Virus record (IMG/VR): IMGVR_UViG_3300022221_000005
Location: 1-31,137 of that record
Source: a virus
Strand: one strand, 5' to 3'
DNA: 31,137 nt
Positions within the stretch are counted from its first letter, which is position 1, and each line of letters opens with the position of its first letter. Positions 3,343 through 31,137 of this stretch are shown here, in pieces. The notes beneath the pieces were generated by a model, which did no database searches, was not told the DNA's origin, and saw nothing but the letters and a program-made list of their open reading frames with translations. Position numbers and translations under genes: made by a program.

Positions 3343-3624
3343 ATGGCTATGACAAACGCGCAAAGACAAAGAGCTCTTAGGCAGGAGGCTCTTCGAGAGC
3401 AGTTAAAGGCAGGTCAGCTACTCACGCAATATATTAATACTATTAATAAAATGATTGAACTGGACCCCTCTGACGAGAACTTCCCTAATGAGCTTAGTAA
3501 GCTTAAGGTCGTCAACGAGAATAGGCGCGTCCTTATCAATAAGTGCCTCCCAGATGAGAAGACACTAGATGTCCAGGGTGATGTAGGGCTTTCTGGTGGT
3601 CTTACCATTACCTGGGAAAAATGA
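3343..3624 (+). CDS. Terminase small subunit
   Basis: 93 residues. The helical protein begins MAMTNAQRQRALRQEALREQLKAGQ and contains 'LKVVNENRRVLINKCLPDEKTLDVQG', a pattern seen in small terminase subunits of podoviruses (a helical core ending in 'LP..K..E/D'). The C-terminal beta-rich tail (GLSGGLTITWEK) would contact the portal or large subunit. The stop codon overlaps the start of the large terminase (ATGA), which implies translational coupling. The role, choosing phage DNA and handing it to the large subunit, follows from family and position. Confidence 0.75.
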   Translation: MAMTNAQRQRALRQEALREQLKAGQLLTQYINTINKMIELDPSDENFPNELSKLKVVNENRRVLINKCLPDEKTLDVQGDVGLSGGLTITWEK

Positions 3625-4907
3625 ATTCCATCGTAATACCTTATAAGCCTCGCCCACTACAGGCCACTCTTCACGATAGTCTTAAGCGATTTAATGTAAT
3701 TGTATGCCATAGGCGGTTCGGAAAAACCGTATTTGCAATTAATGAGATGATAAAGAAGTGCATGATGAACCAGATGGAGAGGGGACGTTATGCATACTTA
3801 GCTCCAACATACAGGCAAGCCAAAGCTATTGCCTGGGATTACCTTAAGCACTACTCAAGACCTATACCTGGCGTATCTATTAATGAAGCAGAGATGCGCG
3901 TTGACTACCCTAACGGAGGCAGGATCCAGCTTTTTGGGTGTGATAACCCAGATGCCTTGCGAGGGGTTTATCTTGATGGCGTTATATTGGATGAGTATGC
4001 ACAGATGCCTTCAAGCTTATTTGGTGAGGTGATCCGCCCTGCTCTTTCAGATAGACAGGGTTTCGCTGTTTTCATAGGTACGCCAAAGGGAAAGAACGCA
4101 TTTTATGACCTATACCAGAAGGCAGGGGAGGCTAAAGAGTGGTTTACAGCGATATACAGAGCTAACGAGACAAACATAATCTCTCCAAAGGAGCTGGATA
4201 GTGCCAAAGAGATCATGTCTCATGAAGAATATATGCAGGAATATGAGTGCTCTTGGACGGCTGCAATAAGGGGATCTGTGTATGGCCAGCTTATGACTGC
4301 TGCTGAGATTGATCGAAGAATAGGATTTATTCCTATAGAGCCAATACTTGATGTTCACACCTTCTGGGATTTAGGAATATCAGATAGTATGGCGATATGG
4401 TTCGTCCAGGCAACGGGGAGCGAGATACGTTGTATACATTACTACGAGAATAACAATAAGGGTATGCAGCATTACATAGGGTACCTTGAGACGTTCGCAA
4501 GAGAGAAGTCCATAAAGTACGGTGACCATTATGCCCCACACGACATTGAGGTCAGAGAGTTGATGTCTGGGGAGAGCCGAAGGGATACAGCCAGGGCTAT
4601 GGGGATAAACTTCAGAGTTATAAAACAGCACAAGATAGAGGATGGGATAGAGGCTGTTAGGAGGATATTGCCTAGGTGCTGGTTTGACAAGAATAGGTGC
4701 AAGCTTGGGATTGAGAGTCTTTCTCAATACCGTTATGAGTATGATGATAAAAGGGGGGTGTTCAAGAAAAGCCCTCTGCACGACTGGTCTTCTCATGCAG
4801 CAGATGCCTTTAGGCAGATGGGAGTAGCCTGGAATGATAGGTTGGCAAGGCCAAAGATTGAGACCGGGCAGACATTTAACTATAGTTCGGAGTTCAGCGT
4901 ATTTTGA
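3621..4907 (+). CDS. Terminase large subunit (ATPase and nuclease)
   Basis: 428 residues, a normal length. This motor pumps DNA into the procapsid and cuts it. ATPase part: Walker A 'CHRRFGKT' (residues 29-36), Walker B 'VILDEYAQM' (121-129, catalytic Glu125) and the coupling motif 'GTPKG' (153-157). Nuclease part (RNase H-like): 'FWDLGISDS' with Asp250, 'APHDIEVRE' with Asp308, and 'DWSSHAADAFR' with Asp388 and Asp395. Every key residue expected for an active enzyme is present. The start overlaps the small subunit stop. Confidence 0.96.
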   Translation: MNSIVIPYKPRPLQATLHDSLKRFNVIVCHRRFGKTVFAINEMIKKCMMNQMERGRYAYLAPTYRQAKAIAWDYLKHYSRPIPGVSINEAEMRVDYPNGGRIQLFGCDNPDALRGVYLDGVILDEYAQMPSSLFGEVIRPALSDRQGFAVFIGTPKGKNAFYDLYQKAGEAKEWFTAIYRANETNIISPKELDSAKEIMSHEEYMQEYECSWTAAIRGSVYGQLMTAAEIDRRIGFIPIEPILDVHTFWDLGISDSMAIWFVQATGSEIRCIHYYENNNKGMQHYIGYLETFAREKSIKYGDHYAPHDIEVRELMSGESRRDTARAMGINFRVIKQHKIEDGIEAVRRILPRCWFDKNRCKLGIESLSQYRYEYDDKRGVFKKSPLHDWSSHAADAFRQMGVAWNDRLARPKIETGQTFNYSSEFSVF

Positions 4908-8829: not shown

Positions 8830-10022
8830 GTTTTTTCCAGAACACATTCCCTGAAACTGCATTTGGTGAGCTCAGAGTAGGGAGCCTTACCCCTCAGTTT
8901 CAGGGGTCTTTTGAGTACTCTGTCGATAATTCAGAGTTAAATTCGTTGATTGAGATTGGCGGCGGAACGGTTACCCAGGCAGATGCTATGTGTGTATGTA
9001 ACACAAGCACAACAACTGGCAGTATTGCTTCTCTTATATCAAAAAGGCACGCAAAGTATCGCCCAGGTCTTGGTGGTTTATTAAGGTTTACCGCCCTATT
9101 CTCAGCTCCTGCGGCAGGAACCGAATCGTTCGCTGGGATAATGGACGAAGTCGGATCTAGCGAAGCGTACAAAAACGGGCTTGCTATTGGGTATGATGGA
9201 GCTGATTTCGGATTTCATAGGTGGTATAACGACATAAAGCAGACAATAAACATATCAGACTGGGATGATCCTCTTGACGGCACTGGCCCGAGCGGGATGA
9301 CAATAGATTTGACCAGGTTGAATGTTTGGTCAATTAACTATCAATATCTTGGAGCTGGAGAAATATCCCTGTCTGTTGAGAACCCAAGTTCTGGGAACTT
9401 GGAGGCGGTCCATAGAATAAGATACACAAACTCAAACACCCAGCCATCGTCTTTTAACCCAAATTACAACTTTATAATGTGTGCCAATAACAAAGCCACA
9501 TCATCTGATGTCACCATAAAGAGTTCTTCTTATGCATATTTTGTTGAGGGTTTAACTAAATACTCTGAAATGCATCAACCTAAATTTTCCAGCGGAGAGG
9601 TTAGCAAATCTGCTGTCACCACAGAAGTGGCTATACTCACAATAAGAAATAAAAGCACCTACGCATCAAAGAAAAACTTTATAGATTTGCATCTTGAGCT
9701 AGTTACTGGTGATATAGAGGCAAATTCCGCGAATAACTTAGGGTCCATTCGTGTTATTAGGAATGCCACACTGGGTGGAGCCCCATCATATACAGACATA
9801 AATACCAATAACAGCATAGTCGAATATGATACTTCAGGGACTACGGTAACCGGTGGCAAAGAGGTTCTGACTTTGCCTTTTGCAGGAAAAAATGACAGAG
9901 AGGTATTTGTTACGTCAGGCCTTGATCTTATATTGGCGCCCGGCGAAACATTCACCTTGTCTGGATCCAGTGCTAACTCTGCGACAATTAAAGGCGCCCT
10001 TTTGTGGAAGGAGTTGTTTTAG
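8826..10022 (+). CDS. Beta-rich virion surface protein, unknown function
   Basis: 398 residues from ATG 8826, chosen because it overlaps the previous stop (ATGA) and has GAGTGG 8 bases upstream; an in-frame GTG at 8814 is possible. An N-terminal stretch ends in 'GGGTVTQADAMCVCNTSTTTGSIASL', then 'KYRPGLGGLLRFTALF', 'GLAIGYDGADFGFHRWY' and 'IYQYLGAGEIS'-like strands (residues ~30-190). This layout is seen in large phage surface proteins with a lectin-like or jelly-roll fold. The C-terminal part (~250-398) is a second beta domain. It lies between scaffold and capsid genes, so a head decoration is likely. No enzyme motif is visible. Confidence 0.7.
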   Translation: MSFFQNTFPETAFGELRVGSLTPQFQGSFEYSVDNSELNSLIEIGGGTVTQADAMCVCNTSTTTGSIASLISKRHAKYRPGLGGLLRFTALFSAPAAGTESFAGIMDEVGSSEAYKNGLAIGYDGADFGFHRWYNDIKQTINISDWDDPLDGTGPSGMTIDLTRLNVWSINYQYLGAGEISLSVENPSSGNLEAVHRIRYTNSNTQPSSFNPNYNFIMCANNKATSSDVTIKSSSYAYFVEGLTKYSEMHQPKFSSGEVSKSAVTTEVAILTIRNKSTYASKKNFIDLHLELVTGDIEANSANNLGSIRVIRNATLGGAPSYTDINTNNSIVEYDTSGTTVTGGKEVLTLPFAGKNDREVFVTSGLDLILAPGETFTLSGSSANSATIKGALLWKELF

Positions 10023-23598: not shown

Positions 23599-23976
23599 TC
23601 ATTTCTGCGACATATATGTTGTAATTGCTGCAATAGCTATGTCAGAACCGGCGCACCATATGGCCTCGTAGCCCATTTTAGTCATCAGTTCAATATGCTC
23701 CATCTGATCCTTTGATACAGAGCAAAGTGTCTTATTGACGTCTTTCATCTCTACCCAGAGTCCGTGCTTGTCTCCTACAGGGACAGCGATGAATAGGTCG
23801 GAAACCCCCTTCTTGAATCCTTCAGCCATAAGGTATCGCATCCTGGCCACCCTCTTTTTTGGGATTAGGTCACACAGAATGGCCCCGTTCGGGTTAGAGA
23901 AAATACACCACTTGTGTTTCGGGTACTTTGCTCTAAACCACTGGATAACCGCTACTTGATGATCATGCTCACTCAT
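23599..23976 (-). CDS. VRR-NUC domain nuclease
   Basis: 125 residues, a stand-alone VRR-NUC (PD-(D/E)XK-like) nuclease. Seen: 'EHDHQVAVIQWFRAKYP' (helix with the conserved H/E-x-Q), 'FSNPNGAILCD' (NPNG), 'GFKKGVSDLFIAVP' (metal Asp78-like in G-x-S-D-L), 'GLWVEMKDVN' (E-x-K), 'VSKDQMEHIELMTKMGYEAIWC' (Q-x8-GY). All catalytic elements are present. Such nucleases process branched DNA. It sits in the recombination operon with ERF, SSB and the YbcO-like nuclease. The start overlaps the upstream stop. Confidence 0.9.
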   Translation of the reverse strand: MSEHDHQVAVIQWFRAKYPKHKWCIFSNPNGAILCDLIPKKRVARMRYLMAEGFKKGVSDLFIAVPVGDKHGLWVEMKDVNKTLCSVSKDQMEHIELMTKMGYEAIWCAGSDIAIAAITTYMSQK

Positions 23977-24322: not shown

Positions 24323-24619
24323 CTATATGTGTGACACATACCCTTTCTCTATCCAGTATTCCCATGTCCTATATAAGCCTCTGATAATACATTGCTGTAT
24401 CTCAATCTCCGACACATCCTTAACATATCTTCTTTTGTCTATTATGTCGTGGCAATCTGAGCACGCAAAAACAGCAAAATAGTCAGGAGACTTTATCCCC
24501 ATTCCCTTTCTCTCTGTATTTATATGGGCTAAAACCGTTGTCTCGTGATTCATGTTGCAATGCGGATGTATGCCAAGAGCGCAGTCCATAAACCTTGCCG
24601 AGTTACGTAGATTAGTCAT
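24323..24619 (-). CDS. YbcO-type recombination nuclease (DUF1364)
   Basis: 98 residues from ATG 24619, chosen because AAGGAG lies 6 bases upstream; the ATG two codons earlier would abut that ribosome site. 'MTNLRNSARFMDCALGI' start, 'NHETTVLAHINTERKGMGIKSPDYFAVFACSDCHDIIDKR' and a final 'RTWEYWIEKG' match the YbcO/DUF1364 family of HNH-like zinc nucleases (Cys and His at 'C...H' and 'C.DCHD'). These occur next to lambda-type recombination genes and are thought to act on recombination intermediates. The start overlaps the upstream stop. Confidence 0.88.
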   Translation of the reverse strand: MTNLRNSARFMDCALGIHPHCNMNHETTVLAHINTERKGMGIKSPDYFAVFACSDCHDIIDKRRYVKDVSEIEIQQCIIRGLYRTWEYWIEKGYVSHI

Positions 24620-24896
24620 CTTCATCTCCTTCTGTTTTCTTATCTAATATATCCATAAACATGCACATAAGATCTTCCTTTCTAACCATGTAAGAGACAT
24701 CCCCCTGATTACGTATTTTTATAGCATCTCTCTCTGGAAAATACATATATACCACTGGCCCTCCAAGGTCACATAAATCTATATTTATTATGCTGACAAC
24801 TCTTCCGTCTAGCATTTCATATAGTTCTCTTATGTCCCTGAAGGCGCCCTTGGTTAAACGTATCTCTATAAGATCTTTTTCATTTCCATAATTCAT
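24612..24896 (-). CDS. Hypothetical protein downstream of ssb
   Basis: 94 residues from ATG 24896, preceded by GAAGG at 4 bases. A longer reading from 24932 would begin inside the parS-like palindrome (MFHVEQ...) and has no ribosome site. The protein has 'LIEIRLTKGAFRDIRELYEML', 'SIINIDLCDLGGPVVYMYFPE' and an acidic tail (KKTEGDEDD). It looks like a small alpha/beta protein; no family recognised. It is coupled to the YbcO-like gene. Confidence 0.6.
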   Translation of the reverse strand: MNYGNEKDLIEIRLTKGAFRDIRELYEMLDGRVVSIINIDLCDLGGPVVYMYFPERDAIKIRNQGDVSYMVRKEDLMCMFMDILDKKTEGDEDD

Positions 24897-24915
24897 TATG
24901 CCTTCACTCCCGGCT

Positions 24916-24931
24916 TGTTCCACGTGGAACA
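24916..24931. promoter_or_regulatory. parS: parS-like centromere palindrome
   Basis: TGTTCCACGTGGAACA is a perfect 16-base palindrome and fits the bacterial chromosomal parS consensus TGTTnCACGTGnAACA at all 14 defined positions. It lies in the 36-base noncoding gap between the ssb stop and the next gene start. With equal base frequencies one expects about 0.0001 such sites in 31 kb. No parA or parB gene is visible, so any ParB would be the host's. Binding and function are inferred. Confidence 0.75.
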
Positions 24932-24932
24932 T

Positions 24933-25352
24933 TTAGAATGGTATCCCGTCATCTGGGATATCCTGCTGTACATTGGCCATACAAGGAGATTCTGTTTGTT
25001 TTTCTTCGTTTATCTCGGAACGAGAATCCAACATCTGCATGCTTCCACCTATTATGCTTGTTGTGTATCTATCTACCCCATTCTTATCCGTCCATTTCTG
25101 TGTCTGTATCCTTCCCTCAACATAAATTTTGCTCCCCTTGCGAACATACTTACCGACAACGTCAGCCAGATTGTTAAAGAACACAACCTTGTGCCACTCG
25201 GCGGCCTGTTTCTTTTCTCCTGTGTTTGCGTCTTTCCAGTCTGTTGATGTTGCTACGCTAACCTCACAGATAGGGGATCCTCTTGCCGTATATTTCAAGA
25301 CTGGGTCTGCTCCGCAGTTTCCTATAATGATTGCCTTATTTACGCCACTCAT
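24933..25352 (-). CDS. ssb: Single-stranded DNA-binding protein
   Basis: 139 residues. An OB fold at residues ~1-107: 'VNKAIIIGNCGADPVLKYT', 'VSVATSTDWKDANTGEKKQ', 'EWHKVVFFNNLADVVGKYVRKG', 'IYVEGRIQTQKW'. It ends in a short linker and the acidic tip 'DIPDDGIPF', which in SSBs recruits partner proteins. Ribosome site GGAG, 7 bases from ATG. It covers ssDNA for the ERF annealing protein encoded just upstream and for host-type replication. Confidence 0.96.
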   Translation of the reverse strand: MSGVNKAIIIGNCGADPVLKYTARGSPICEVSVATSTDWKDANTGEKKQAAEWHKVVFFNNLADVVGKYVRKGSKIYVEGRIQTQKWTDKNGVDRYTTSIIGGSMQMLDSRSEINEEKQTESPCMANVQQDIPDDGIPF

Positions 25353-25391: not shown

Positions 25392-25434
25392 CCCATTTAT
25401 GGGCTCATCATATTTGATGATTGGCTAATATTAG
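25392..25434. promoter_or_regulatory. Cluster of three inverted repeats between erf and ssb
   Basis: Three palindromes follow each other within 43 bases: CCCAT-TT-ATGGG (25392-25403), TCATCA-TATT-TGATGA (25405-25420) and CTAATATTAG (25425-25434). They fill much of the 78-base gap between the ERF stop and the SSB start; the last overlaps the ERF stop region. In minus-strand mRNA they could form stacked hairpins that process or protect the ssb message; as DNA they could be operators. No U tract makes this a standard terminator. Confidence 0.5.
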
Positions 25435-26159
25435 TCAGATTTAGGCGAATCCCCATAATATAGCTGTCTAAATTCGTTCAATATTAGAGCCCTTTCCTCT
25501 GTAGACCATATTCCTCCTTTCGTTGGAGCCAATCTGTATAATATTACCTGGTCTTCCTCGCTGATCATTTCATACCAAAATCCTGCTGCCTGAGTTATAT
25601 CTCCTGACTCTATAGCGGCCTTTATGTCGGTTATAGACTCAATATTTCTTGCAATGCATGACGTGTACTCGCTGAAGAACGCGGCAACCTCCTTCTTAGC
25701 GTTGTCAACCGATTCCGAGCTAGCGTTTACTAACTCTCCCTTATCGTTTTTGCTATCTGCGTCCTTGTTGTCGTCAATCATAAATAGCCCGTTTAGAGCA
25801 TATTTCCTTGCATAAGAGCTTGCACTTCCAGTTATTTGGCTAGAATCCATTCCCTTCCGATCCTCAGCCTCTCTTGCAAAGGCTGATACGCTTATAGTCT
25901 CCTTTCCATTAGACATAGAGGCTGTCGCTTTAACATATATCCTGTCGGCAACAGGCACTATCTCGTCCGTTATGAGAACAAATAATCCGTCTTTCATCCA
26001 TGGTTTTAGTGCATGCAATATGTCTTCGCAGTTCCTATAGCTATAATTACCGAACTTATTGAACTGGCTCTTTGGGGCGTGAAGCTCTCTCTGTATGTGT
26101 GAGAGAAGCTCACTAAGAGGCTTAGACTTAGCGTCTGGCTTATCTTTCTTATCGCTCAT
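25431..26159 (-). CDS. erf: ERF-family single-strand annealing protein
   Basis: 242 residues from ATG 26159 (GAGGT 5-6 bases upstream; an in-frame GTG at 26171 is less likely). The ERF core spans residues ~10-135: 'SHIQRELHAPKSQFNKFGNY' with 'YSYRNCEDILHALKPWMKDG', and 'DSSQITGSASSYARKYALNG' with 'LFMIDDNKDAD', the G-S-x-x-S-Y-x-R-[KR]-Y/L-x-L hallmark. The C-terminal part is acidic and helical. It anneals ssDNA for recombination and concatemer formation, working with SSB and the nearby nucleases. Confidence 0.93.
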   Translation of the reverse strand: MSDKKDKPDAKSKPLSELLSHIQRELHAPKSQFNKFGNYSYRNCEDILHALKPWMKDGLFVLITDEIVPVADRIYVKATASMSNGKETISVSAFAREAEDRKGMDSSQITGSASSYARKYALNGLFMIDDNKDADSKNDKGELVNASSESVDNAKKEVAAFFSEYTSCIARNIESITDIKAAIESGDITQAAGFWYEMISEEDQVILYRLAPTKGGIWSTEERALILNEFRQLYYGDSPKSD

Positions 26160-26313
26160 ATCCCACCTCACATCTGTATGATCTTATTTGCTCCATCTGA
26201 TATTCATCACCGTAGCCTCTGATATAATCTTCAGACATATCATCTCTAGCCTGGAGTCCATCTGCACAGTCCAGGAACCCTTGGATATAGTCATCGCTTA
26301 TTTTCTCATTCAT
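26149..26313 (-). CDS. Small acidic hypothetical protein upstream of erf
   Basis: 54 residues: 'YIQGFLDCADGLQARDDMSE', 'DYIRGYGDEYQMEQIRSY'. The repeated 'Y-I-x-G-[FY]' pattern (Y-x-x-G-F-x-D-C ... S-x-x-Y-x-x-G-Y) recurs in small phage early proteins that I cannot name. The ATG at 26313 overlaps the upstream stop (ATGA), and the stop lies 11 bases into the erf gene, so it is coupled on both sides. This supports a real gene in spite of its size. Confidence 0.65.
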   Translation of the reverse strand: MNEKISDDYIQGFLDCADGLQARDDMSEDYIRGYGDEYQMEQIRSYRCEVGYER

Positions 26314-30955: not shown

Positions 30956-31137
30956 ATGAAGATACTTACGGCATTTAGGATTGATAGTGATGTTTATGAC
31001 AGGCTTAAGGAGAGAGCTGAGGATGGGAGACCGATGTCTTGGCATTTACATAAGGCGCTCAATAATTATCTGGGTGTATCTTCACATAAGGAGGCCGTTG
31101 TCCAGAAGCCAAAAAAGGAAAAGGCGGCTAAGTTCTT
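30956..31137 (+). CDS. Replication initiator (lambda O-like role), N-terminal part running off the window
   Basis: This is the 5' part of the gene that continues at base 1; joined through the circular overlap it encodes 177 residues. The ATG at 30956 follows a purine-rich ribosome site (GAGGGG, 5 bases upstream). The N-terminal ~45 residues (MKILTAFRIDSDVYDRLKER...) look like a ribbon-helix-helix or arc-type DNA-binding segment, with a beta strand followed by two helices. The rest, encoded from base 1, looks like the C-terminal domain of phage replication initiators. The gene follows the noncoding DnaA-box region, a promoter at 30715-30743 and a 39-residue ORF, and precedes the helicase loader, as in lambda O-P order. 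The RHH assignment is inference from pattern. Confidence 0.75.
   Translation, partial: MKILTAFRIDSDVYDRLKERAEDGRPMSWHLHKALNNYLGVSSHKEAVVQKPKKEKAAKF
31011..31137. repeat. Terminal direct repeat, copy 2 (circular overlap)
   Basis: Exact copy of bases 1-127. See the first copy for interpretation. The physical ends of the packaged DNA cannot be read from this repeat. Confidence 0.93.

Follow-up and report, generated by a model that had tools for sequence, protein, structure and literature searches.

The palindrome and its surroundings

Why should a phage in which no partition genes can be recognized carry a perfect copy of the site at which bacterial chromosomes load their own partition protein? 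Chromosomal ParB loads at parS and then slides along the DNA as a CTP-dependent clamp, and the window analysed here, a stretch of viral DNA of 31,137 nucleotides, holds the perfect palindrome TGTTCCACGTGGAACA at positions 24916–24931. As the initial annotation had pointed out, this palindrome is identical to the chromosomal parS consensus, TGTTNCACGTGNAACA, at all 14 of its fixed positions. It is the single perfect parS match of the window, the only CACGTG of the window sits inside it, and no second perfect match was found across the 3.03-Mb bin G000, in which the window is contig C311. The number of perfect matches expected in the window is 1.3e-4 when computed from the base composition and 4.7e-5 under a second-order Markov model, which agrees with the chance of about 1 in 10,000 that was first put forward. 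That figure leaves aside the number of windows and motifs scanned, and we therefore added three control palindromes, equal in base composition to TGTTCCACGTGGAACA, to the search of the IMG/VR collection.

The site is flanked upstream by ssb, which encodes a single-strand DNA-binding protein (24933–25352, minus strand; Pfam SSB, 4.7e-35; phrog_44, 9.9e-47), and downstream by an ORF of 94 amino acids (24612–24896, minus strand) to which no function could be assigned. ssb ends at 24933, and if the next ORF starts at ATG 24896, the palindrome falls in a noncoding gap of 36 bp (24897–24932). In our reading of the sequence, ATG 24896 is preceded by an AAGG/GGAG stretch resembling a Shine-Dalgarno motif, and this start is more likely than the alternative at ATG 24932, from which the ORF would be 106 amino acids long and the palindrome would lie inside its first codons (MFHVEQ...). 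The original description of the site as placed in a noncoding gap after ssb thus stands with the former start and would give way to a coding position with the latter. With either start, the ORF gave no convincing Pfam or PHROG family, and the 94-aa product had no relative among the viral contigs or phage records. The RNA fold at the palindrome is unremarkable; the transcript could form a 6-bp hairpin, and a functional hairpin or terminator is not supported, given the z-score of -0.69 and the absence of a U-tract.

The window has an exact repeat of 127 bp at its two ends (1–127 and 31011–31137), which is consistent with an assembler trace of a circular genome rather than with a true terminal repeat. 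We interpret it as the circular genome, about 31 kb long, of a podovirus related to the HTVC010P-type phages, and its TerL is about 48% identical to that of the HTVC010P-type pelagiphages. The structural genes are read rightward and encode the terminase, connector, head and tail-tube proteins, an internal virion protein and a tail-fibre protein. A frame that crosses the contig junction (30956–31137 and 1–479) into the ORF at 3–479 begins with a ribbon-helix-helix-like segment (a weak match to Pfam RHH_1, 0.0065). The parS site lies within a leftward group of genes, which includes ssb and, likewise on the minus strand, genes for an Erf-like single-strand DNA annealing protein (25431–26171; Pfam ERF, 6.8e-35), an HNH nuclease of the YbcO type (24323–24625; Pfam YbcO, 8.2e-23; phrog_131) and a VRR-NUC nuclease resembling Holliday junction resolvases (23599–23976; Pfam VRR_NUC, 3.6e-7; phrog_5702). 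The scanned proteins of the window gave no match to a ParA, ParB or integrase family in the Pfam and PHROG libraries, and a search of the bin for the ParB_N domain (PF02195) matched contigs C202 and C72 only, in agreement with the original remark that the phage has no visible parA or parB.

Orphan parS sites in viral genomes

Orphan parS sites occur in many unrelated phages, well above the level expected by chance. The palindrome TGTTCCACGTGGAACA was recovered from at least 120 IMG/VR stretches and its inner variant with TT..AA, TGTTTCACGTGAAACA, also from at least 120, whereas across all of IMG/VR the control palindromes were found in only 10 (TGTCTCACGTGAGACA), 6 (TGTTCCTCGAGGAACA) and 1 (TTGTCCACGTGGACAA). 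With a simple gene caller, and with the parS counts taken as lower bounds, 50 of the 120 listed TGTTCCACGTGGAACA loci fall outside predicted genes or at their edges, as compared with an expectation of 16.2, and the remaining 70 lie within predicted genes. Once near-duplicates had been removed, 42 of the 105 listed loci were outside genes, where 14.7 would be expected (P 4e-12). The TT..AA variant was outside genes at 57 of 113 non-redundant listed loci, with an expectation of 13.5 (P 1e-25).

Two other origins of these sites were considered and rejected. For chromosomal contamination, no match to ParA, ParB, RecF, GyrB, DnaN or RsmG was obtained at the 120 listed loci (E 1e-3). A coding artefact was suggested by the peptide VPRGT, which most of the sites inside genes encode, yet a control palindrome that encodes VPRGT was present in only 6 stretches. 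The genes flanking the sites outside genes include those for the terminase, the head protein and the portal. Furthermore, the ParB_N domain was found in none of the 50 records with TGTTCCACGTGGAACA sites outside genes and in 2 of the 50 records with TT..AA or multiple parS sites.

The probable host and its ParB protein

The phage is linked to its probable host through co-binning, the window being one of the contigs in G000. The bin contains a canonical chromosomal parA-parB pair within an rsmG-parA-parB-atp region, and the encoded ParB has kept the ParA-binding motif LGRGL as well as the C (GERRWRA) and P (ENIQRE) motifs. When aligned to the Caulobacter ParB, it displays the parS-type residues R173, A184 and G201 along with the conserved N178 and R204, and it has a leucine at position 179 (Caulobacter numbering), which is variable among ParB proteins; the residues that confer specificity on Noc are Q173, K179, K184 and R201 (PMC7383237). 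Judged from these residues, the ParB of the bin probably has the specificity of parS-binding proteins rather than that of Noc.

This ParB is 84 and 81% identical to those of two other genomes of the same genus, G041 and G042, and the chromosomes of both carry the exact 16-mer TGTTCCACGTGGAACA, with three copies in G041 and two in G042. A distance of 624 bp separates two of the copies, which in G041 lie within recF, and the third copy in G041 is located downstream of gyrB. A recF gene could not be identified in the bin, which would explain why no chromosomal TGTTCCACGTGGAACA was seen there. The use of the same 16-mer in the genus, together with the parS-type residues, makes the host ParB the plausible partner that had been proposed at the outset. 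Beyond the 16 bp, the flanks of the phage site are unlike those of the same-genus chromosomal sites, and the site is not near oriC or parAB, the contig being without parAB. A sequence with one mismatch to parS, TGTTCCACATGGAACA, is present at 3494–3509 of C139 (L243), a further phage-like contig of the bin; it was rejected as a second phage site because a match of this quality is no more than chance would provide.

Relatives of the phage

No close relative of the phage was identified in the collections searched. Perfect parS sites were found in none of 40 records related by TerL, some of which are near full length, and in none of five cultured relatives that were scanned (Methylophilales MEP301, Venkman, Vibrio 1.138.O, HTVC010P and Dunaliella virus SI2). 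The nearest record, G002, has a TerL protein that is 68% identical and structural genes that are syntenic with those of the window. Apart from ssb (46%), the early regions of the two have little in common, and G002 contains no parS site even when one mismatch is allowed. A capsid search in 369 gammaproteobacterial genomes led to a single further bin, G252, in which two contigs are phages of this kind. One of these, C35 (L456), was chosen by capsid homology alone, independently of the parS motif, and is syntenic with the window (49% identity for terL, 40% for the connector and 51% for the capsid). The gap that separates its scaffold gene from its capsid gene holds a perfect parS site, TGTTCCACGTGAAACA (9135–9150); a terminator hairpin and its T-tract directly precede the site, and a promoter-like TTGACA follows closely. 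The second contig, C41, has no parS site, and two copies of TGTTCCACGTGGAACA, separated by 630 bp, are present elsewhere in G252. The parS sites are found in different places in different phages: in the gap after ssb in the window, between the scaffold and capsid genes in C35, and in others in front of terL or next to the major head gene.

A proposed role for host ParB and the alternatives

The explanation that we favor, and consider probable on balance from the sequence data, is that the window carries an orphan parS of the host type, which would recruit the host ParB protein onto the phage DNA. The first step, binding of the phage palindrome by the chromosomally encoded ParB, is likely; the bound protein would then, in a CTP-dependent manner, form a clamp that moves out over the phage DNA by sliding. 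Because the phage lacks ParA and ParB, any complex formed at the site would have to use the proteins of the host. Phage genomes coated with ParB could be handled like the origin region of the host and be positioned in the cell, and an extrachromosomal phage genome that persists across cell division might in this manner be shared between the daughter cells. At high copy number, the phage sites would also pull ParB off the chromosome. Since the place of parS differs between phages, a role that concerns the whole genome, such as positioning, segregation or the titration of ParB, is favored over the control of a single operon. Plasmids can be stabilized by a par operon of the chromosomal kind together with one parS site (PMC7022226), and SGI1 is stabilized by parS-like sites that bind the ParB of IncC plasmids (PMC10954446), and for these reasons we lean toward the positioning and segregation of extrachromosomal phage DNA, although we propose this as the main benefit only tentatively, at somewhat less than even chances. 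What speaks against recruitment of host ParB as the overall explanation is that the host was assigned by binning, that the site is present in a single copy, that no relative was found with a site at the same place, that perfect sites are missing from the 40 TerL-related records and the five cultured relatives, and that the majority of the listed IMG/VR sites (70 of 120) are within predicted genes.

The main rival concerns the benefit alone, as the binding of ParB would be the same: the parS sites of many replicating phage copies might deplete the chromosome of ParB and, by way of ParB, of SMC as part of a host takeover, and the phage would profit from disturbed host segregation or from freed resources. 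Among 41 long viral records with parS, some of which are 200–350 kb in size, a tyrosine integrase was identified in only 2, and the library scans found no integrase in the window phage, suggesting that many of the carriers may be lytic; the records may, however, be fragments, the count refers to integrases of the tyrosine type, and a missing integrase is also in line with an extrachromosomal carrier state. Furthermore, one site per genome of 31 kb could compete for ParB only at high copy number, and we consider titration unlikely as the main benefit.

Less likely still is a local effect, in which ParB between ssb and the next gene would serve as a roadblock, silencer or insulator of the leftward group. 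The location of the site inside a co-directional gene group of the early type fits with such an effect, as do the frequent sites upstream of terL in one terminase clade and the finding that expression in P. aeruginosa is reduced by an artificial parS site placed close to a promoter (PMC7022226). However, the varying position of parS from phage to phage speaks against it, and a promoter scan yielded no strong promoter-like match beside the site and fewer promoter-like sites than in shuffled sequences. Silencing or insulation of the early operon had been among the functions first suggested, and as a general function it is argued against by the site between the scaffold and capsid genes in C35.

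A chance match without function is very improbable. An event with a probability of 1e-4 will turn up in a scan of very many windows, and the nearest relatives do not have the site, but the control palindromes were rare in IMG/VR and, for two of them, only 2 of 16 loci were outside genes as compared with 50 of 120 listed loci for parS; perhaps 1–8% of such matches are due to chance, and the identity with the parS sites of the same genus and the relative's own site make this origin less likely for the window. We find it just as improbable that the palindrome is the target of another protein, an RNA element or the first codons of the downstream gene, since the possible start at ATG 24932 and the 6-bp hairpin are offset by the ordinary RNA fold, the lack of a U-tract and of a convincing family for the ORF, and the enrichment in viruses of both the CC..GG and the TT..AA inner variants, which fits the N positions of parS.

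Comparison with known partition systems

The 16-mer is identical to the chromosomal parS site of the Pseudomonas-type ParABS systems in the Gammaproteobacteria, which in the same genus is located in recF and near gyrB, but the site in the window is on a phage, in a single copy and far from any parAB. A parallel is offered by SGI1, a mobile element that has no partition proteins of its own and carries the parS of another replicon, as the ParB-less phage would do. The difference is that SGI1 relies on a plasmid ParABS system and a helper protein, Sci, whereas the element considered here is a phage and its presumed ParB donor would be the host chromosome. In phage-plasmids, such as P1 and the extrachromosomal mycobacterial prophages (PMC7157519), parS on phage DNA serves extrachromosomal partition, but these encode their own ParABS systems, whereas none was detected in the window and its site is of the chromosomal type. 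The temperate phage Lacachita (PMC10286716) also has an incomplete partition system and no identified integrase; however, the roles are reversed, in that Lacachita has a ParB-like gene and the window phage a site without ParB.

We think it reasonably probable that many unrelated phages, mostly without a recognizable integrase or ParB, carry orphan host parS sites and recruit host ParB, and that such recruitment during infection or carriage represents a general and so far undescribed use of the host segregation machinery. Our literature search, which left aside preprints and most subscription papers, revealed no report of phages without ParB that carry parS sites of the chromosomal type. If such recruitment takes place, the chromosome segregation proteins of the host are a common phage resource, and the phages involved can be found by a simple sequence search. 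The orphan sites would also offer a direct test of whether phage DNA is moved, distributed, compacted or protected when ParB loads onto it, and they represent a natural counterpart to engineered ParB/parS labelling.

Arrangement of the viral parS sites

Some of the viral sites directly abut the T-tract of an intrinsic terminator (L003, L005, L037, L045, L055, L104, L358 and L456), an arrangement seen for 8 of 112 sites outside genes as compared with 0.8% of random gap positions. The terminator may keep transcription from displacing ParB; the parS site in the window adjoins no terminator.

In four records (L049, L071, L108 and L109), a CC..GG and a TT..AA site start 24 bp apart just upstream of terL, and in other members of that terminase clade a single copy precedes the gene by no more than about 160 bp. 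The clade, in which 15 of 79 loci have a perfect site, was rejected as an unbiased test because the query had been built from parS carriers; when the contigs already found by the 16-mers were subtracted, 2 independent perfect sites were left. L105, a viral contig with a WhiB-like regulator and no ParB_N domain, has five perfect TGTTCCACGTGGAACA sites, at 4324, 6308, 8135, 9161 and 10442, four of them clearly in gaps and one within a predicted ORF near its start.
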